A stretch of DNA of 64,000 bases from Novosphingobium sp. (GTDB taxonomy: Bacteria; Pseudomonadota; Alphaproteobacteria; Sphingomonadales; Sphingomonadaceae). This document shows positions 4,580 through 52,222 of this stretch, in pieces (positions within the stretch are counted from its first letter, which is position 1; the number at the start of each line of letters is the position of its first letter). The notes beneath the pieces are model-generated. The model worked only from the letters and a program-made list of their open reading frames with translations. It made no database searches and was not told the DNA's origin. A program made the position numbers and the translations under genes. The stretch is taken from NCBI GenBank assembly GCA_024236215.1, contig JACKKX010000001.1:310001-374000 (forward strand). The letters run 5' to 3'.

Positions 4580-5224
4580 CTACCACCGCACCAGCGAAGG
4601 AATAATCAGACGTCCGGCGATCCCGGCCAGAACCACGCTCAGCCCATGCCAGAAGCCGATGTGCAGCAGGTCGTTGTGCGGGCAATAGAGCGTGACCGCG
4701 AAGATCCCCGCACTGCCCGCCGCCACCCCGGCCAGCATCCCGGCACTTTGGGGGCGAGAGGGGGCGCCGCGGCGCAGCCACAGCACCAGCGCGAGTGCCG
4801 TTACCAAGCCCCAGCCCAGCCCATAGGCCATGCAGTGCCAGCCATCGCCATCGGGTATGGCGGGCGATCCTCCCATCCAGTCTGCGGCCCATTCGACCAG
4901 CGCAGCGAGCGGCAGCACCGCCGCCATCAGTGCCGTCCAGCCCCAACCTTCGCGGTGGCCGCCAACGAAAGGCCGGGCCATATCGAGCGCGGCCCAGGCC
5001 GAGGCCAGCGCCAGCACCAGGAACAGCCCGCTGGAGAGCAGGAACATCGCATCGGGGCGCAGCGCGGCCAGATCGGCGCGCATCCCGAAGCCCAGCACCA
5101 TACCGGCAATGCCAACCAGCATGGCCAGCAGCGTCAAGCCGACACCCTCGCGCTGGCGCATCGGACGGACCGGTTCGAGCCCTTCGACCAGGCCGGCGAT
5201 GAAATTATCTGGATCGTGTCCCAT
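4580..5224 (-). CDS. nrsF: NrsF-type anti-sigma factor (DUF1109 membrane protein)
   Basis: A 214-residue protein with a short cytoplasmic N-terminus (MGHDPDNFIAGLVEGLEPVR) and six hydrophobic segments, as in DUF1109/NrsF. NrsF of Caulobacter holds the ECF factor SigF inactive and releases it under chromium/cadmium/copper-type stress. Two cysteines reported as essential there (131 and 181, from memory) fall at Cys131 (GWHCMAYG) and Cys181 (LYCPHNDLLH) here. It follows sigF by 3 bases on the same transcript, the usual sigma/anti-sigma order. The role is inferred from family, cysteine placement and position. Confidence 0.88.
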   Translation of the reverse strand: MGHDPDNFIAGLVEGLEPVRPMRQREGVGLTLLAMLVGIAGMVLGFGMRADLAALRPDAMFLLSSGLFLVLALASAWAALDMARPFVGGHREGWGWTALMAAVLPLAALVEWAADWMGGSPAIPDGDGWHCMAYGLGWGLVTALALVLWLRRGAPSRPQSAGMLAGVAAGSAGIFAVTLYCPHNDLLHIGFWHGLSVVLAGIAGRLIIPSLVRW

Positions 5225-5227
5225 TGC

Positions 5228-5752
5228 TCAGGCTCTTTCGATCATGGCAGCGAGGCGCTTGAGGCCCCGGTGAATGTTGACCTTGACCAGGCTTTCGCTC
5301 TGGCCGGTCGATTGCGATGCTTCGGCGATCGAGCGGCCCTCGATCTTGACCAGTTCGATCGCCCGGCTCTGCGCCTCGGGCAGCGCGGCGAACAGCCGTT
5401 CCAGGCTGACGCGGGCGGCAATCGCCTCTTCCTCGCTGTCTACCGGCAGATCGTGGTCGAGCGACTGTTCTTCGGCCCGGTAAACCTGGCGCAGGTGGTC
5501 GACGAAGCGATAGCGCGCGATCGCCGCCAGCCAGGGGGTGAAGGGGCGCAGCGGATCGTAGCTGGCGAGCTTGCGGTGCACCGAAAGCAGCGTGTCCTGC
5601 ACCAGATCCTCGATCTGGGCGGGCAGCACCCGGCGGCGGTAGAACCGCAGCAGCCAGCTGCGTGCGGCGCCAAGCAGCGCCGCATAGGCCTGCTTGTCGC
5701 CGCGCTGGGCAAGGCCCGCCAGCCGGGCCAGGGTGGCTTCATCGGCGATCAT
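5228..5752 (-). CDS. sigF: ECF sigma factor, SigF-like
   Basis: A 174-residue sigma-70 of ECF size. Region 2 is near residues 25-85 (QIEDLVQDTLLSVHRKLAS, PWLAAIARYRFVDHLR). Region 4 is near residues 110-165 (LPEAQSRAIELVKIEGRSIA, SESLVKVNIHRGLKRL). The start [11 protein letters not shown] is used because it lies in an ATGA overlap with the stop of doxX upstream; longer in-frame starts would run into doxX. With nrsF directly downstream it matches the SigF-NrsF metal-stress module of Caulobacter. Both divergent promoters of the buf locus carry the SigF-type motif, so it probably activates its own transcript. Confidence 0.9.
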   Translation of the reverse strand: MIADEATLARLAGLAQRGDKQAYAALLGAARSWLLRFYRRRVLPAQIEDLVQDTLLSVHRKLASYDPLRPFTPWLAAIARYRFVDHLRQVYRAEEQSLDHDLPVDSEEEAIAARVSLERLFAALPEAQSRAIELVKIEGRSIAEASQSTGQSESLVKVNIHRGLKRLAAMIERA

Positions 5753-6216
5753 TTCGCTCTGAAGCTTAGCAGCAAGGCATCGAGCGAGAACAGCCCCGCC
5801 CCGCGCATGGCCAGAACCAGCGCCAACGCCGCCCAAAGCGAATGTTCGCTCCACCAGGCATCGGGATAGACGAAGAACTGGATCGTCAGCGTCATCGCCA
5901 GCAGCCCCAAAGCGGCGCCGCGGGTGAAAAGCCCCGCCACCAGCAGCACCGGCAACACATGCTCGGCGGCATTGGCCATCACCGCCGCCAGCTCGGGCGG
6001 AAGCGGAACCCCGGCATATTCGGTGCGGAACAGCCCATAGGTCGAATCGGTCAGCTGGAACCAGGTGCCCTCCTCAACCTTGGTCTGGCCCGAGCGCCAG
6101 AATACCCCGCCCAGCGCCAGGCGCACCAGCACCAGCACCGCGCTTTCGGGCAAACGGCCCGTTAGCTGGCGCACCGCGCTATCGTAGCGCGCCAGCAAGG
6201 GGGCGATCAGCCTCAC
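5749..6216 (-). CDS. DoxX-family membrane protein
   Basis: A 155-residue DoxX-type protein. It has an N-terminal amphipathic stretch, the motif [20 protein letters not shown] and about four membrane helices ([39 protein letters not shown]). The start is taken as GTG at 6216 because it overlaps the TGA of bufA1 (GTGA). DoxX proteins often accompany DUF2282/DUF692/DUF2063 genes; their role there is not settled, and a redox or quinone-linked membrane function is a guess. The gene is coupled to both neighbours (bufA1 upstream, sigF downstream by ATGA). Confidence 0.87.
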
Positions 6217-6488
6217 GCCTGGGGTTCCAGTGTGCCGTGGCCCTTGGGGGTCTTGATCGAAAGGCAGGTGCCCGCCTTGACCAGCTTCCAGGCGTTGCCC
6301 TGCCAGTCGCGGGTCGAGGTGCCGGCGCAGCTGGTGCCGGGGCCGGCCTTGCAATCGTTCTTTCCGGCCTTGGCCACGCCATAGCACTTTTCCATCGCCG
6401 GTTTGGCGGCGGGCTGGGCGGCGTGGGCCGCACCGGCGGCGGCAGTGGCGGCAATCATGGCGAGAGCGAGCGTGGTCTTGGCGGTCAT
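6213..6488 (-). CDS. bufA1: BufA1-type bufferin precursor (DUF2282, exported Cys-containing metallophore)
   Basis: A 91-residue exported protein. The ATG at 6488 is preferred over an in-frame TTG 6 bases upstream because AAAGGA lies at correct spacing. A signal peptide ([23 protein letters not shown]) precedes a mature part with four cysteines at 35, 46, 54 and 75, the DUF2282 layout ([19 protein letters not shown]). Family knowledge: DUF2282 bufferins are periplasmic copper-binding peptides in which cysteines are modified by a DUF692 enzyme (BufB) with BufC. Unusually, its bufB/bufC are not downstream but on the divergent transcript with a second precursor. A SigF-type promoter lies at 6527-6552. 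Confidence 0.9.
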
Positions 6489-6526
6489 GGTCAATCCTTT
6501 GGCAAATGGGTTGCAATGCCCGCCAA

Positions 6527-6552
6527 TTCGCCGCCCTCTACCTGGCGGTTAC
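6527..6552 (-). promoter_or_regulatory. SigF-type promoter of bufA1-doxX-sigF-nrsF
   Basis: Read on the minus strand: GTAACC (6552-6547), a 16-base spacer, then CGAA (6530-6527). This equals the SigF promoter motif I recall for Caulobacter (GTAACC-N16-CGAA). It lies 39 bases upstream of the bufA1 ATG, leaving room for a short leader with the AAAGGA ribosome site. It would make sigF autoregulated. Confidence 0.8.
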
Positions 6553-6586
6553 ACGGCGGGAGGTGAAATCTTTTTTTCGCCATGCC

Positions 6587-6612
6587 GTAACCGGACCGGC
6601 CCCTCCCCCGAA
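6587..6612 (+). promoter_or_regulatory. SigF-type promoter of bufA2-bufB-bufC
   Basis: On the plus strand GTAACC (6587-6592), a 16-base spacer and CGAA (6609-6612) match exactly the motif and spacing found on the opposite strand at 6552-6527. It lies 46 bases before the bufA2 ATG. The two -35 elements are back to back, 34 bases apart. Confidence 0.82.
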
Positions 6613-6658
6613 TCCGTCCATGCCGCTTCGGCACAACCTATCCCCTGGGAGATTGACG

Positions 6659-6943
6659 ATGACCCCCCTCAAGACCGGAACCACCCTTGCCGCCACCGTC
6701 GCCGCTCTGGCGCTGGGCGCGCTCGCCAACGCCGCCCCCGCCCCCGCGGGCAGCACCGGCGCGGCGCTGAACGCTGCAGACACCGTGCACTGCTATGGCG
6801 TCAACAGCTGCAAGGGCACCGCCGACTGCAAGACCACGATGAACGACTGCAAGGGCATGAACGAGTGCAAGGGCCACGGCTTCAAGGCACTCGGTGCCGG
6901 CATGTGCCTCAAGAAGGGCGGTACGATCGGCGATCTCGGCTGA
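6659..6943 (+). CDS. bufA2: BufA2-type bufferin precursor (exported, six-cysteine)
   Basis: A 94-residue protein starting [20 protein letters not shown], with GGGAG ahead of the ATG. A signal peptide of about 25 residues is followed by an Ala/Pro linker and a small Cys/Lys-rich domain. Cysteines fall at 45, 51, 57, 64, 70 and 83, with recurring C-K and D/E-C pairs (DCK, ECKG), giving a nearly regular 6-7 residue period. It fits the BufA2 family of periplasmic bufferin-type metallophores matured by MNIO enzymes. It is first gene of the SigF-type transcript leading to bufB and bufC, so it is the likely cognate substrate. Confidence 0.88.
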
Positions 6944-7031
6944 TCCTTACGCTCCACCCCACGGCCCGGCCGGTTTTCCCCTCACCCCCCGTCCGGCCGG
7001 GCCACCCCCTTTCTCCTATCGGATCGCCTTG

Positions 7032-7868
7032 ATGAGCCAGACCATCGCCCCCTTCACAGGCTTCGGCCTGGGCCTACGCAAACCGCATCACCGCGCCTAT
7101 CTCGAAGCCGAACAGCCGGTCGATTTCGTCGAGATCATCTCGGAAAACTTCATGGCCTGTGGCGGCCAGCCGCTCGCCACGCTCGAGGCGGTGCGCGAAC
7201 GCCATCCGGTGGCGATGCACGGGGTCTCGATGGGGCTGGGATCGGCGCACGGGCTTGATCGCGGCTATCTCGCCGAGCTCAAGGCGCTCGCCCGGCGGAT
7301 CGACCCGTTGTGGATTTCAGATCACCTGTGCTGGACCGGCGTGCCCGGCCACAACAGCCACGACCTTCTGCCCCTGCCCTATACCGAAGAAGCGCTCGAC
7401 GTGTTCGTGCGCAACGTCATCCATGCGCAAGATGTGCTCGAACGCCCGCTACTGGTCGAGAATCCCTCGAGCTATGCCGCCTTCGCCGCCTCGACGCTGA
7501 GCGAGTGGGAGTTCCTTTCGGCGATCGCCGAACGCACCGGGTGCTACCTGCTGCTCGACGTCAACAACATCTATGTCAGCAGCGTCAACCACGGGTTCGA
7601 TCCGCGTGAATTCCTGCGCGGCATTCCCGCCGACCGGGTGCGTCAGATGCACTTGGCCGGGCACAGCCAGGGTCCCGAAGGCATGCTGATCGACACCCAC
7701 GATGCCCCGGTCTGCGCCGAGGTCTGGGCGCTCTACGCCGAAGCCGCGCAACGCTTTGGCACCACCGCGACGATGATCGAGCGCGACGATGCAATCCCGC
7801 CGCTGGACACGCTGCTGGCCGAACTGGACCTGGCCCGCGCGGTCACCCGCGAAAGGCTGGCGGCATGA
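7032..7868 (+). CDS. bufB: MNIO-family (DUF692) bufferin maturase BufB
   Basis: A 278-residue DUF692 protein with the family's usual TIM-barrel length. Metal-ligand motifs are visible: MHGVSMG (His63), SDHLCW (His98), VENPSSY (Glu143), LLDVNN (Asp176), MHLAGHS (His207, His211), DTHDAP (Asp221, His223) and [12 protein letters not shown] enzymes hold two or three irons and oxidise cysteine side chains of peptides (MbnB, TglH, BufB); BufB is reported to form thiooxazole-type rings in bufferins. The start at 7032 is chosen because [11 protein letters not shown] is the conserved beginning. bufC overlaps its stop by ATGA. It is the only MNIO gene in the window. Confidence 0.93.
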
Positions 7869-8596
7869 GCCTGGCCGCGCTGCAACGCGCCTTCATCGCC
7901 GAGATCGCCGCCAGCGATGAAGACGCCCCTGCCTCGTCGCTGGGGATGCAGATCTACCGTCAGGCCTATCGCGGGCGGCTCGCCGCCGCGCTGGAGATTT
8001 CGTTCGAACGCACCCGCTGCTGGGTTGGCGAGGAGAGCTTCGCCCAGGCCGCCGCGCACTACATCCTGACCCATCCGCCCCATTGCTGGACGCTCGATGC
8101 CTATGGCGCGGACTTTCCCGCGCTGCTTGGTGAGCTGTTCGCGGAAAACCCCGAAGTGGGCGAACTGGCCTGGTTCGAATGGACCCTGCAACAGGCCTTT
8201 GCCGCGCCTGACCGCGCCGCGCTCGATCCGGCGGCGCTCGCCGCCGCCGGGCTTGACGAGGCGCAATGGGCCGGGCTGCGCTTCACCATGGCGGCCGGCT
8301 ATGCAGCCCGCCCGGTGCGGACCGCATGCCTTGCGTTGTGGCGTGCGCTGGCCGAGGGCGAGGCCGATGGCTTCGATCCGGCTTCCGGCGAGTGGCGCCG
8401 ACTGATCGTCTGGCGCCGCGATCACACCCCCCACTTCCGCCTGCTCGACGCCGACGAATTCGCCGTGCTCGATGCCCTGGCGCGGGAGCGCACACTGGGC
8501 GAAGCCACCGCCACCGGCGATCCCGCCCGGCTGGGAGAGTGGCTGGCACAGTGGCTGGGCGAAGGACTGTTCTCGGGCTTTTCGACGGCGCTATAG
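7865..8596 (+). CDS. bufC: BufC-type partner protein (DUF2063 N-terminal domain)
   Basis: A 243-residue protein. The first 90 or so residues match the DUF2063 domain ([49 protein letters not shown]). The C-terminal half is a less conserved helical domain as in HvfC/BufC partners. These bind the MNIO enzyme and recruit the precursor peptide. It is translationally coupled to bufB and is the last gene of this arm. Its stop overlaps by 6 bases the convergent end of the DsbA-family gene. Confidence 0.9.
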
Positions 8597-9271
8597 TCCC
8601 TTCGCCACCACCTTGCGCAGCACTTGCACATAGGTTTCGGGTTCCTGCGCGCCGGGGATCAGGAACTTGCCATTGACCACCATCGCGGGAACGCCCGAGA
8701 TGTTCATGTCCCAGGCCTGGGCCTCTTCGCGCCGCACGATCTGGCCCAGCGCCTCGTCTGCGATCGCCGCCAGCGCGCCATCCCGGTCAAGCCCCACCGA
8801 TGCCGCGACATCGGCCAGCACCTGCGGATCGCCGATCTGGCGGCGCTGCTGGAAATGGGCGTCGAACAGCGCCAGCTTGAGCCGGTTCTGCGCCTCGGCG
8901 CCGCTCTCGATCAGCGCCCATTTGAGCAGCTTGTGGGCGGCGAAGGTGTTCCACATCATCGCCGGCGGCGGATCGCCCGCTCCGGCATAGGCAAACGAAT
9001 AGCCCGCACGCTCACCAATCGCGACCAGCCTCGCGCGGTTGGCTTCGGCTTCTTGCGGACTGCGGCCATACTTGCGGGCGATATGGTCGGCCTGCCCCTC
9101 GCCCTCTTCGGGCATATCGGGGTTGAGCTCGAAGGGCAGCCAGCGGATCTCGGCCGCAATCTCGCCTTCGAGCTGCGCAAGCGCCTTTTGCAGCTGGCTG
9201 TAGCCGATGATGCACCACGGGCACATCACGTCGGACCAGATGTCGATCGTCAGACGGGCGGGTGCGTTCAT
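8591..9271 (-). CDS. DsbA-family oxidoreductase (FrnE-like)
   Basis: A 226-residue soluble protein with thioredoxin-like fold features. The active site is CPWC at residues 17-20 (WSDVMCPWCIIGYSQL), and the FrnE-type segments LPFELNPDMP and SGVPAMVVNGKFLIPGAQ follow. FrnE proteins are cytoplasmic dithiol oxidoreductases/isomerases. The start MNAPARLTIDIW is chosen because its ATG overlaps the TGA of nudC (ATGA). It is the last gene of a four-gene leftward chain mutY-hydrolase-nudC-frnE. Confidence 0.9.
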   Translation of the reverse strand: MNAPARLTIDIWSDVMCPWCIIGYSQLQKALAQLEGEIAAEIRWLPFELNPDMPEEGEGQADHIARKYGRSPQEAEANRARLVAIGERAGYSFAYAGAGDPPPAMMWNTFAAHKLLKWALIESGAEAQNRLKLALFDAHFQQRRQIGDPQVLADVAASVGLDRDGALAAIADEALGQIVRREEAQAWDMNISGVPAMVVNGKFLIPGAQEPETYVQVLRKVVAKGL

Positions 9272-10146
9272 CGTTCGAGCCACCATTTAAGCAGGTGATG
9301 CGCGATCGCCTGGGGTGGCGGAGCGATAAAGCGCGCATCCTCCTCGCCGCGCATTGCGGCCGCCACTTCATCGCGGGTGAACCAGCCGGCCTCGTCTAGC
9401 TCGGTGCGGTCGATCACGATCTCGTCGTTCAGCGCATGGGCATGGCAACCGATCATCAGGCTTGAGGGGAACGGCCAGGGCTGACTGGCGACGTAGCTCA
9501 CATCGCGCACCTCCACCCCGGCTTCCTCGCGCACCTCGCGCGCCACCGCCTCTTCGATGCTCTCTCCCGGTTCGACGAACCCGGCCAGCGCCGACAGCCG
9601 CCGGGGCGGAAAGCGCGGCTGACGGCCCAGCAGCAGGCGCCCCTCATGCTCGACCAGCATGATCGTTACCGGATCGACGCGGGGGAAATGCTCGGCCTTG
9701 CAGACATCGTTGGTGCAGGTGCGCTGCCATCCGCCCTTGGCCAGCACCGTTCCGTTACCGCAGCGCGCGCAGAAACGGTGGCGGGCGTGCCAATCGACCA
9801 GCGCCCGCGCCGTGCCATAGGTCGCCAGTTCATCGAGGCTGAGCGTGGACATCGCCGCCCACAGCCTGGGATTGGCCGGGGCGACCGATCCCAGCAGGTG
9901 CGGCGCAACCGCCGCGAAACAGGCCTTGCCGGCGGCAAAACCCAGGAACACCAGTCCGGCATCGGGATCGGCATCGCCGAGGTTGCCCCAATCGAGCCCG
10001 CCCTCAGGCGTAATCAGCGGATCGAGCCCGTCGAGCCGCAGCAGCCGAGCGCGCCAGTCCATCAGCGCGGCCAGGGCATCGGGATCGGCGCGGACATTGT
10101 CCGCCCGGTCCAGCCCCGATCCGGCGAAGGCGATCTCCAGCCTCAA
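9268..10146 (-). CDS. nudC: NADH/NAD+ pyrophosphatase NudC (NUDIX hydrolase, possible RNA deNADding enzyme)
   Basis: A 292-residue protein with NudC architecture. The N-terminal domain is followed by a four-Cys zinc ribbon (CARCGNG ... CTNDVCKAEHFPR), then a Nudix box with GFVEPGESIEEAVAREVREE and the SQPWPFPSSLMIG motif typical of NADH-specific members. It cleaves NAD(H) to NMN(H) and AMP and, in E. coli, removes NAD caps from RNA. It is coupled on both sides by ATGA overlaps. Confidence 0.95.
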   Translation of the reverse strand: MRLEIAFAGSGLDRADNVRADPDALAALMDWRARLLRLDGLDPLITPEGGLDWGNLGDADPDAGLVFLGFAAGKACFAAVAPHLLGSVAPANPRLWAAMSTLSLDELATYGTARALVDWHARHRFCARCGNGTVLAKGGWQRTCTNDVCKAEHFPRVDPVTIMLVEHEGRLLLGRQPRFPPRRLSALAGFVEPGESIEEAVAREVREEAGVEVRDVSYVASQPWPFPSSLMIGCHAHALNDEIVIDRTELDEAGWFTRDEVAAAMRGEEDARFIAPPPQAIAHHLLKWWLER

Positions 10147-49335: not shown

Positions 49336-51024
49336 TCAATGATGACCATCGTCCTCGATCACTGGAACCGTCTCGAACTGGTGGAACGGAGGCGGGCTCG
49401 ACAGGGTCCATTCGAGCGTGGTCGCGCCTTCGCCCCAGTAATTGCCCTCGGCCTTTTTGCCCATGGTGAAGGCATAGATGATGTTGACGATCCAGATCAG
49501 CACCGAAATCGACATCACGAAATAGCCATCGGTCGAGAGCGTATTCCACTTCTCGAACGCCGGGGCATAATCCGGATAACGGCGCGGCATGCCATTCAGC
49601 CCGAGGAAGTGCTGCGGGAAGAAGATCATGTTCACGCCGACGAAGAACACCGCGAAGTGCAGGTACGAGAGCGCTTCGGAGTGCCAGCGTCCGCTCATCT
49701 TCGGGAACCAGTAATAGAACCCTGCGAACAGCGCGGTCACCGCGCCGAGGCTCAGCACGTAGTGGAAGTGCGCAACCACGAAGTAGCTGTCATGCACCAC
49801 ATCGTCGATCCCGCCGTTGGCGAGGTAGACGCCGGTCACGCCGCCGACCACGAACAGGAAAATGAAGCCGATCGCCCAGACCATCGGGCTCTTGAATTCG
49901 ATCGAACCGCCCCACATCGTCGCGATCCAGCTGAAGATCTTGATGCCGGTGGGCACCGCGATCACCATGGTCGCCAGCGTGAAGTACAGCTTGGTGTTCA
50001 CGCTCATCCCTGTGGTGTACATGTGGTGCGCCCAGACGATGAAGCCGACCACGCCGATCGCGACCATCGCATAGGCCATGCCGAGATAGCCGAACACCGG
50101 CTTCTTCGAGAAGGTCGAGACGATCTGGCTGATGATCCCGAACGCGGGCAGGATCATGATGTAGACCTCGGGATGGCCGAAGAACCAGAACAGGTGCTGG
50201 AACAGCACCGGATCGCCGCCGCCCGAGGGATCGAAGAAGGTGGTACCGAAGTTGCGGTCGGTGATCAGCATGGTGATCGCTGCAGCCAGAACCGGCAGCG
50301 CCAGCAGCAGCAGGAAGGCGGTGACCAGCACCGACCACACGAACAGCGGCATACGGTGCAGGGTCATCCCCGGCGCGCGCATGTTGAAGATCGTGGTGAT
50401 GAAGTTGATCGCGCCCATGATCGAGGCCGCGCCCGCAAGGTGCAGCGCGAAAATCGCGAAATCGGTCGCCGGGCCGTTCGAGCCATAGGTCGAAAGCGGG
50501 GCATAGGCAGTCCAGCCAATCCCCGCGCCGTTGCCGCCCGCGTCGCCAGGCACGAAGGCCGAGATCATCAGCGAGCAGAAGCCTGCTACGGTCAGCCAGA
50601 ACGAGATGTTATTCATCCGCGGAAAGGCCATGTCGGGCGCGCCGATCATGATCGGCACAAACCAGTTGCCAAAGCCCCCGATGATCGCGGGCATGACGAG
50701 GAAGAACACCATGATCAGGCCGTGCGCGGTGATCAGCACGTTCCACAGGTGGAGCGCGCCGTTCATGTCCACCGGCTTGCCGCCATCGAGGAACTGGGCA
50801 ACCGCGCCAAGATACTGGATCCCGGGGTGGGCCAGTTCGAGCCGCATGATACCCGAGATCGCACCACCGATAAGCCCCGCGAAAATCGCGAAGATCAGGT
50901 ACAGCGTCCCGATATCCTTGTGGTTGGTCGACATGAACCAGCGGGCAAAAAACGCCGGCTTGTGATCGTGATCGGCGTGGTGATCGTCGGCGTGAGCCTG
51001 GAAGTGTTCGGCGGTAGTGGCCAT
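49336..51024 (-). CDS. ctaD: Cytochrome c oxidase subunit I (aa3-type)
   Basis: A 562-residue protein with twelve membrane helices. Visible are [20 protein letters not shown], the heme/CuB region [20 protein letters not shown] with the His-Tyr pair, [20 protein letters not shown] (K channel), and the second His region [18 protein letters not shown]. It is the proton-pumping catalytic subunit of aa3 oxidase. It follows ctaC by 32 bases. Confidence 0.98.
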
Positions 51025-51056
51025 GACTTGCGAACCTTGTCTTCGTGGTTTTCGGC

Positions 51057-52109
51057 TCAGGCGCCGGTTGCCGGAGCGGCGGGAGCGGCGGGAGCGGCGG
51101 CAACGGCCGGAGCATCCGGAGCGCCATCGATCTTGCCGCCCTGGGCGATCACCCAGGCGTTGAACTTGTCACGCGGGAGCGCCTCGACCACGATCGGCAT
51201 ATAGCCGTGGCGCGCTCCGCACAGTTCCGAACACTGGCCGTAATAGACCCCAGGTTCGGTCACGGTCAGCACCTTCTCGTTGATCCGGCCGGGAACCGCG
51301 TCAAGCTTGAACCACAGCGACGGCACCGCAAACGAGTGGATCACGTCGGCGCCGATGGTCTGCATGCGGATCGGCTCGCCCACCGGGATCACCATGCGAT
51401 TGTCCACCGCCAGTTGCGGCGGCTCGCCGTTCTTCACCGCGTCCTCATCGGGCAGCATGTTCGAGATAACCTCAAATCCGCCGTTGTCGGGATAGGAATA
51501 GGTCCAGAACCACTGGTTGCCGGTGGCCTTGACGGTCAGCGCCTTTTCCGGCGCGGGCTTGTACTGCGCGCTGATCAGCTTCACCGACGGCACTGAGATG
51601 CCGATCAGGATCAGGATCGGAATGCCGGTCCAGATCACTTCGAGCAGGGTGTTGTGGCTGGTCTTCGACGGCACCGGATTGGCCCGCTTGTTGAAGCGGA
51701 TCATCACGTAGAGCAGCAGCACCAGCACCAGCGCGGCAATCGCGAACATGATGTAGACGAGGATCGTATGCAGCCCCAGCGCCTGGCGGCCATTAGGCGA
51801 ATACTGATCCTGAACGTCGATCCCGCCATCGATCGGCATGCCCTTGCCCGCCGTCGGCTTCATCGGGGTGTAGCCACCCGGAGCAACCTTGAAATGCGGA
51901 TCGTTGGGATCGATCGCCGGGGCGACAGGGGCAGCGGCAACCGCCGGCTCGGCAGCGGGAGCGGCCTGTTCGGTCGCCGCGGCGGCAGCCTCGGTCGCAG
52001 TGGCGGCTTCCTGGGCGCTCGCAGGCTGTGCTGCCGCGAACAGTGCCAGGGTCAGGCCGATTGCCTTGATCGCATGGCCCGCGGCGCGGGCGGTTTGGCC
52101 GAAGTTCAT
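51057..52109 (-). CDS. ctaC: Cytochrome c oxidase subunit II
   Basis: A 350-residue protein with a signal peptide ([20 protein letters not shown]...), an Ala/Glu-rich linker of about 50 residues, two membrane helices ([39 protein letters not shown]), and a CuA domain ([40 protein letters not shown]) with both Cys, His and Met ligands. A low-complexity Ala/Pro tail ends the protein. The start is set at the signal peptide Met. Confidence 0.96.
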
Positions 52110-52193
52110 CGTTCCTCGTGCTTTCGCTATCCGGTGCGGCGGAAGAACGCGCAGTCCCTCTCCCCCCACCCCATGGGAGACATTTCGAGAGGG

Positions 52194-52222
52194 CCTATAC
52201 GCGTGCTTGCGGGGCACCTCAA
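52194..52222 (-). promoter_or_regulatory. Candidate housekeeping promoter of ctaC-ctaD
   Basis: On the minus strand TTGAGG (52222-52217), a 17-base spacer and TATAGG (52199-52194) resemble a sigma-70 promoter. It lies 85 bases upstream of the ctaC ATG, in the 196-base gap shared with divergent pyrE. Otherwise this gap shows no recognised element. Confidence 0.4.

Follow-up and report, generated by a model that had tools for sequence, protein, structure and literature searches.

Can one maturase pair serve the precursors of two bufferin families in the same cell? The question is raised by a divergent seven-gene locus at positions 4580–8596 of a 64,000-nucleotide stretch of Novosphingobium sp. 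DNA (assembly GCA_024236215.1, contig JACKKX010000001.1, positions 310,001–374,000 of the forward strand), which was analysed at its full length and is called the window below. By its content the locus is a bufferin cluster, with one maturase pair, the MNIO enzyme BufB and its partner BufC, where Caulobacter has two. According to a published survey, a single MNIO/partner pair could act on several precursors, or some of these could stay unmodified, and more study is called for (PMC12452194). The locus is a clean test of that question, since it has two precursor families, one enzyme and one genome, and natural variants extend the comparison to loci with both enzymes (L044, L127) and to a locus without BufA2 (L068). 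We consider it probable that the locus is a self-contained SigF/NrsF module in which a single Buf2-type BufBC matures both precursors, after loss of the Buf1-type bufB-bufC pair. The genes, called with Pfam and NCBIfam profile hidden Markov models (HMMs) and with start codons picked by eye, are:

4580–5224, minus strand: nrsF, membrane anti-sigma factor (PF06532, 1.5e-41)
5228–5752, minus strand: sigF, second-to-last gene of the bufA1 arm, ECF sigma factor (PF08281, PF04542)
5749–6216, minus strand: doxX, small membrane protein of the DoxX family, GTG start (PF07681, 1.7e-15)
6213–6488, minus strand: bufA1, Buf1-family precursor with four Cys residues (PF10048, DUF2282, 2.1e-23, 82.5 bits, cut-off 22.4)
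6659–6943, plus strand: bufA2, Buf2-family precursor with six Cys residues and Cys-Lys motifs (NF050166, 98.4 bits, cut-off 60)
7032–7868, plus strand: bufB, Buf2-type MNIO maturase (NF050167, MNIO_BufB, 371.7 bits, cut-off 310)
7865–8596, plus strand: bufC, maturase partner of the DUF2063 plus RRE type (PF09836, 4.7e-19)

All seven genes that an earlier note on this DNA had proposed were recognised by the HMMs, in the order nrsF-sigF-doxX-bufA1 on the minus strand and bufA2-bufB-bufC on the plus strand. The tight coupling within the arms that it had described is also present: the bufA1 stop overlaps the doxX start (GTGA), doxX overlaps sigF and bufB overlaps bufC (ATGA in both cases), and 3 nucleotides separate sigF from nrsF. 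Its family assignments stood for every gene but bufA2, which it had taken to be DUF2282-type; the product belongs to NCBIfam BufA2 and had no Pfam match at E 0.01. BufA1 has its Cys residues at positions 35, 46, 54 and 75 and, by eye, a putative Sec-type signal (positive start, hydrophobic stretch, AHA site). Those of BufA2 are at 45, 51, 57, 64, 70 and 83, again with a putative Sec-type signal by eye. We considered doxX as a maturation protein of the HvfX family and rejected this, the score of 41.8 bits being below the NF050144 cut-off of 80; the label stays DoxX family. BufC scored 19.5 bits against the NCBIfam HvfC cut-off of 142, and a sequence search against the PDB gave nothing useful; only fold comparison produced matches. 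With its AlphaFold2 model (predicted local distance difference test score 94.3), Foldseek matched two established partners of MNIO enzymes, TglI (8hci_A/8hi7_A) and NGO1945 (3dee), at E 3.2e-5 or better, with query template-modelling scores of 0.55–0.61 that mark these matches as not close. Both the DUF2063 domain and the RRE-type fold of the predicted structure identify BufC as a PME-type 1 partner.

Although a Buf1-type maturase usually adjoins Buf1 genes, Buf1 genes without a linked MNIO have been published (PMC12452194). No Buf1-type maturase stands beside bufA1 in the window. The source genome (3.08 Mb in 7 contigs, completeness given as 100) yielded one MNIO gene, one DUF2063 gene, one Buf1 gene and one Buf2 gene. 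The earlier note had named a second bufB-bufC elsewhere as one of the findings that would overturn it; the genome search turned up neither another bufB nor another bufC, and we rejected the idea that a second MNIO serves bufA1 from another place. The sole MNIO found is of the Buf2 type.

We assigned this type with relatives from two whole-genome samples (119 from the family and 59 from the genus, with the source genome in both) and from named loci recruited by the window BufB, of which the best 80 of 566 were used. A tree built from 126 different MNIO proteins of the family regions and named loci placed in one clade (SH-aLRT 100) the 19 enzymes encoded directly behind a Buf1 gene and one that has no adjoining precursor. 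The 94 enzymes encoded behind a Buf2 gene, the window's included, fell outside this clade, and the precursor label requires just one change on the tree. It is a quick tree, in which many inner branches are weak and some terminal ones very long, and we do not rely on its finer relations. Five positions separate the classes: the window BufB has I36, S66, H110, Q205 and M248, positions at which H, G, P, E and L predominate in Buf1-type enzymes. These residues were derived from 113 enzymes and then used on 160 rows, an overlap that makes them partly circular evidence; the tree is not circular. Judged by sequence, through the tree and the class residues, the window BufB is a Buf2-type enzyme. Its Asp252 aligns with the proposed catalytic base and is Asp in every aligned row that covers it. 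The selectivity site beside the catalytic-base Asp has been reported as Asp in BufA2-type (Cys-Lys) enzymes (PMC13097082); this Asp, Asp253 in the window, occurs in 119 of 125 Buf2-type rows, among which a few loci appear twice, and in none of the 23 covering Buf1-type rows. The six exceptions (L054, L068, L141, L143, L202 and L204) all come from Buf1-containing loci, a pattern too small in number to be other than weak. Among the best 80 of 566 named loci, the nearest BufB proteins are from Novosphingobium (79% and 75%).

The same searches brought up two further kinds of MNIO gene. Five genomes (G052, G162, G178, G193 and G194) hold a third class, with A, S, Y, Y and L at the class positions and no bufferin precursor recognised beside it. 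In G016 and G023, a Cys-rich protein of about 240 amino acids (CHVQNDC..NQGGCGLYG..) is encoded immediately before an MNIO gene whose class is unclear and may be a different, protein-sized MNIO substrate. The positions are:

L043:6538–7311, and L209, L210, L211, L212 and L213: third-class MNIO loci
L060:7372–8196, minus strand: gene for the Cys-rich protein of about 240 amino acids
L072:6002–6730, plus strand: gene for the Cys-rich protein of about 240 amino acids

The genome samples bear on the question of sharing. MNIO scored over the cut-off in 39 of the 119 family and 24 of the 59 genus genomes, Buf1 was present in 37 and 23, and Buf2 was over the cut-off in 24 and 22, respectively. Local profiles for Buf1 and Buf2 were built from four-Cys and six-Cys sets, with the family regions and the window in the training data; the first versions cross-matched. 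Forty genomes have bufferin MNIOs of the Buf2 type only, and 39 of them carry Buf1: 38 together with Buf2, and G041 with Buf1 only, while G025 carries Buf2 only. Among the 14 genomes with the Buf1 type only, 12 carry Buf1 and none carries Buf2. The Fisher value of 4.6e-12 for this comparison indicates size only, as relatedness is ignored. Another six genomes have both MNIO types and both precursors. The table behind these counts was compiled by hand from separate search results; it leaves out G187 (fragment below the cut-off), G022 (truncated) and G016 (unclear class), and takes the class from few residues in G018 (a gene split across two contigs and counted once) and G081 (three residues). 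No precursor was found in G081 and G201, which have a Buf1-type MNIO. A single MNIO is present in 34 of the 40 genomes; G057 and G193 have two of the Buf2 type, and the five third-class genomes are also among the 40.

The four Cys residues of Buf1 are retained in these genomes. In 37 of the Buf2-type-only genomes, 39 of 39 Buf1 genes keep all four, 38 by the strict pattern and one by eye (L189, with CAS for CAG); G154 and G180 were read from named records at the same place, and G165 and G174, which have Buf1 by HMM, lie outside this four-Cys reading. The two central residues are the modified ones in Buf1 (PMC12452194). They are missing from the Buf1 gene of G051, a genome in which no MNIO was found, and its two outer Cys residues are kept. 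G041 (completeness 100) has a single MNIO, of the Buf2 type, plus two Buf1 genes. We found no BufA2 there, even at E 10, and nothing similar in three frames of the spacer; a SigF-type motif with one mismatch stands directly before its bufB. The G041 enzyme belongs to a tree set of 19 (SH-aLRT 97) in which 15 of the 18 other members come from window-layout loci; the window BufB sits in another small set.

The C-terminal tails of Buf1 proteins may mark out a subclass. The tail of BufA1 after the last Cys reads TPxGxG(S/T)L. Of the 51 Buf1 genes with Buf2 in the same locus and no maturase of their own, 50 have the TPxG tail (46 TPKG, four by eye); the exception, L141, has a second MNIO in its genome. 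The pattern TPxGxGSL was found in 0 of 15 Buf1 genes that have a maturase of their own and lack an adjoining Buf2. We rejected the tail as an adaptation to sharing in itself, since it is also present in the two-maturase loci L044, L127 and L135 and in the Buf1-type-only genomes G073 (L088) and G082 (L079; 66% complete). A Lys after the second BufA1 Cys, as in the window, occurs in 20 of the 51 maturase-less Buf1 genes beside Buf2 versus 2 of the 15 with their own maturase and no Buf2, which is a weak difference and not proof.

A comparison of this neighbourhood among relatives, which the earlier note had proposed for Sphingomonadales as a check, showed the layout to be a trait of the lineage. 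The window's gene order was found in 24 distinct loci, the named ones all from Sphingomonadales; the number is made up of 12 family regions, including the window, and 13 named loci, less one duplicate, with L047 cut by a contig end. The idea that the layout is unique to the source genome was rejected, many relatives having the same order. Layouts were scored by gene order with distance disregarded (L111, for instance, has 2.7 kb between nrsF and bufA2). Because L100 and L119 are the same loci as L064 and L057, they were dropped from the tail, hairpin, NrsF-Cys and layout/motif counts; they were kept in the scan for a 17-base motif spacing and in the 160-row class-residue and selectivity-Asp tables. 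Among the best 80 of 566 named loci, 13 have the window layout (Novosphingobium, Sphingosinicella, Sphingobium, Sphingomonas and Croceicoccus), 2 have a partial form of it, 13 have a sister layout with doxX-bufA1 opposite sigF-nrsF-bufA2-bufB-bufC, 35 have Buf2 only within the stretch, 8 have other arrangements of both precursors, 8 have no recognised precursor, and one (L127, Asticcacaulis) is divergent with both maturases. Outside the 24, the genus regions add 4 window, 5 partial and 8 sister layouts, which may overlap with named loci. In the genomes of the named window-layout loci a single MNIO was found in 10 of 12 tested, and two in those of L106 and L136 (L100 being outside this test).

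In L044 and L127, which have the same divergent layout, both arms retain bufB-bufC. A two-maturase pair of complete operons like theirs is the likely ancestral arrangement, and the window layout would have arisen from it when the Buf1-type bufB-bufC was lost. Two further arrangements were seen. L105:3385–9092 has both full systems in tandem in a single direction (sigF-nrsF-bufA2-bufB-bufC-bufA1-bufB-bufC-doxX), and L124:2492–6553, from an uncultured Caulobacter, has bufA1-doxX-bufA2-bufB-bufC one way and sigF-nrsF divergent, with a second MNIO in the genome.

The two arms diverge from a 170-base spacer (6489–6658), which has one outward-facing exact copy of a SigF-type motif per strand:

6527–6552, minus strand: GTAACC-N16-CGAA, exact, 38 nucleotides before the bufA1 start codon
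6587–6612, plus strand: GTAACC-N16-CGAA, exact, 46 nucleotides before the bufA2 start codon

This is the motif described in Caulobacter (PMC3511200). In the relatives we scanned the 220 bases before each gene for it, requiring N16 spacing and allowing a single mismatch at the most. In the 24 loci of the same order, it precedes bufA1 in 24 and bufA2 in 22, and the two remaining bufA2 sites (L070 and L097) have N17 spacing; random 220-base windows in those loci contained it in 101 of 4800 cases, true sites included. All 19 sister-layout loci have it before both precursor genes. In the 39 Buf2-only loci, mostly of other lineages, it precedes 8 of 42 Buf2 genes; the SigF wiring of Buf2 genes is not universal. 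In the window-type layout, 1 of 24 sigF genes had an upstream motif of its own, versus 18 of 20 in the 19 sister-layout loci. Since sigF nearly always lacks a motif of its own in the window-type layout, sigF and nrsF are probably fed from the bufA1 promoter.

The best NCBIfam subfamily matches of the sigF product are under their cut-offs, and we call it SigF because of its nrsF partner and the promoter motif. The only Cys residues of NrsF are 131 and 181, the same numbers as those reported for Caulobacter NrsF (PMC3511200), and these columns have Cys in 65 of 66 and 66 of 66 aligned relatives. The NrsF family match, the two conserved Cys residues and the motif at the target promoters are the features of a SigF/NrsF (ECF16) pair. 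As the strict NCBIfam NrsF equivalog gave 38.9 against a cut-off of 300, we claim no orthology with Caulobacter NrsF. Across the family sample, NrsF scored over its cut-off in 59 of 119 genomes versus 39 of 119 for MNIO; because NrsF is the commoner, a sizeable share of such sigma/anti-sigma pairs probably has targets other than bufferins.

Between bufA2 and bufB lies a strong hairpin, which, like the two SigF-type motifs, goes unmentioned in the earlier note:

6963–7003, plus strand: perfect 11-base-pair stem (6963–6973 with 6993–7003)

The stretch 6940–7031 folds at −31.5 kcal/mol (z −4.09), which 0 of 200 shuffles equalled. Of 95 bufA2-bufB spacers, 53 have perfect arms of at least 9 base pairs, compared with a mean of 1.4 and a maximum of 4 in 20 dinucleotide shuffles (the spacers extend to the start of the profile match and include a few bufB codons); where bufB follows a Buf1 gene, such arms occur in 2 of 19 spacers. 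The hairpin may be a device that holds the precursor above the enzyme.

We propose that the module works as follows. NrsF, a membrane protein, would hold SigF until excess metal (copper, by analogy) or other thiol stress acts on Cys131 and Cys181 and SigF is freed. The freed SigF would fire the two divergent promoters in the spacer. The minus transcript would give the Buf1 precursor, DoxX and extra SigF and NrsF, the sigma factor thereby amplifying itself through the precursor promoter with its brake in step; the plus transcript would give the Buf2 precursor and then, past the hairpin, less BufB and BufC, with the hairpin probably cutting the downstream yield or stabilising the precursor mRNA. 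One Buf2-type BufBC would turn Cys residues of both precursors into heterocycles that bind copper (in cases studied so far, thiooxazoles), and the Sec pathway would then take the peptides to the periplasm, where they would buffer copper. We lean, by a narrower measure than for the locus itself, towards a general form of this proposal: in a large sphingomonad group that lost the Buf1-type enzyme, the Buf2-type BufBC would be the sole maturase for both families and would have taken over the TPxGxGSL subclass of Buf1, and a single self-amplifying SigF loop, acting through one pair of promoters, would keep the two chemically different copper peptides in step.

Several observations weigh against one enzyme pair maturing both precursors. 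MNIO subgroups have been tied to particular precursors (PMC12452194). FonBC, an MNIO pair of another class, failed on test peptides with a charged residue after the Cys, and Asp253, which the window BufB keeps, has been modelled elsewhere as reading the Lys after Cys in BufA2; in the same work, changes at the selectivity site left FonB active (PMC13097082). The G051 control is one genome, and the genome counts ignore relatedness and include incomplete genomes (G082, 66 percent; G201, 57 percent; G165, 75 percent). In L113, L115 and L116 (around position 5000), nrsF is followed by a Buf2-type bufB-bufC with no recognised bufA2 adjoining; these are possible further losses of BufA2. BufBC might instead mature BufA2 only, leaving BufA1 as an unmodified Cys peptide that binds metal through thiols or disulfides, or that acts as a decoy or sensor beside NrsF. 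The Buf2 class of the maturase in window-layout loci, with its sharply different class residues, favours this, as does the room that the survey leaves for unmodified precursors (PMC12452194). We nevertheless judge it unlikely, for the central Cys residues are kept in all 39 Buf1 genes of the Buf2-type-only genomes and lost in the MNIO-less G051, and G041 retains BufBC with only Buf1 precursors found. That BufA1 is matured by a non-MNIO enzyme, or by an MNIO missed through assembly gaps, seems very improbable: although the assembly is in 7 contigs, its completeness is given as 100 percent with one MNIO found, and Buf1 together with solely Buf2-type bufferin MNIOs recurs in 39 genomes of the two samples, too many for assembly gaps. 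We know of no other Buf1 maturase.

Maturation of both precursors by one BufBC, our preferred reading, was combined above with SigF control and a response to copper, and these parts also meet contrary evidence. GTAACC-N15..18-CGAA is not enriched genome-wide (24 sites versus 27 for the reversed control), so that we place weight only on the placement and pairing of the sites. By analogy, the feedback loop is weakened by Caulobacter sigF, which is not strongly autoregulated under chromium or cadmium; there, sigF and the DUF692 genes are also dispensable for resistance to chromium and cadmium (PMC3511200). Copper resistance of Cupriavidus was unaffected by the related gig cluster (PMC8224329), and copper did not lead to expression of a related cluster in Microbulbifer (PMC12538549). 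Other alphaproteobacterial ECF16/NrsF pairs answer hypochlorite or reactive oxygen (PMC8315932), so that the inducing signal may not be a metal. Copper might not be the main business of the locus, which would instead answer and protect against other metals, oxidants such as hypochlorite or further kinds of thiol stress, as the response of Brucella ECF16-NrsF pairs to hypochlorite (PMC8315932) and that of Caulobacter SigF targets to chromium and cadmium (PMC3511200) would suggest. The Caulobacter SigF regulon, however, goes up in copper in all conditions tested, loss of sigF impairs growth in copper, unlike in chromate or cadmium (PMC8224329), and Caulobacter Buf1 binds copper (PMC12452194). 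We find this alternative doubtful, marginally more so than an unmodified BufA1.

The closest known systems share parts of the window locus. Caulobacter CC3254-3257, CC2907-2905 and CC3253-3252 have the same gene families, SigF motif and NrsF Cys131/Cys181 (PMC3511200), and in copper the SigF regulon, including sigF, is induced and a sigF insertion mutant is sensitive (PMC8224329). As the earlier note stated, the layout there is different: two bufABC operons each have their DUF692 and DUF2063 genes, giving one maturase pair per precursor, whereas the window has a single pair beside two precursors. Caulobacter sigF-nrsF form a separate operon that has a promoter of its own as well as a second, unknown regulator (PMC3511200), and in the window they follow bufA1-doxX. 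Buf1-type clusters of the order bufA1-bufB-bufC-doxX-sigF-nrsF (nine loci in the family regions, with the motif before 10 of 11 Buf1 genes) keep bufA1, doxX, sigF and nrsF in the same succession as the window, whose bufA1 arm lacks bufB-bufC and has a Buf2-type pair on the opposite strand, and whose BufA1 differs by its TPxGxG(S/T)L tail. Buf2-type clusters share with it the bufA2-bufB-bufC arm, the Cys-Lys precursor and the selectivity-site Asp. The survey places genes for sigma factors and NrsF in Buf1 clusters and finds them absent from Buf2 clusters (PMC12452194); the window has both genes beside a Buf2 arm with a SigF motif and thus qualifies that rule, and its maturase comparison yields candidate specificity residues. 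Captophorins (fontiphorin, bufferins and oxazolin) resemble the window's system in the MNIO and PME1 partner, the Cys-derived heterocycle and the Cys-rich precursor, and the available parts of that paper describe no cluster in which a single enzyme is combined with two classes of precursor (PMC13097082). The survey mentions tandem precursors and multi-precursor genomes with one MNIO pair, in the parts available without the window's layout (PMC12452194). In the open-access papers that we searched, a set without subscription papers such as the original bufferin paper, we found no description of a divergent arrangement of two bufferins and one maturase.

On one side the locus is flanked by genes for an MgtE transporter and a DUF1489 protein, and on the other by one for a DsbA-like protein (Pfam); these neighbours do not look like parts of the bufferin system. 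The DsbA-family gene, at 8591–9286 of the window, converges on bufC, with whose 3′ end it shares 6 bases. About 41 kb from the locus, at 49336–52217 of the window, are open reading frames that resemble subunits I and II of an aa3-type cytochrome c oxidase (named by eye), which are copper enzymes.

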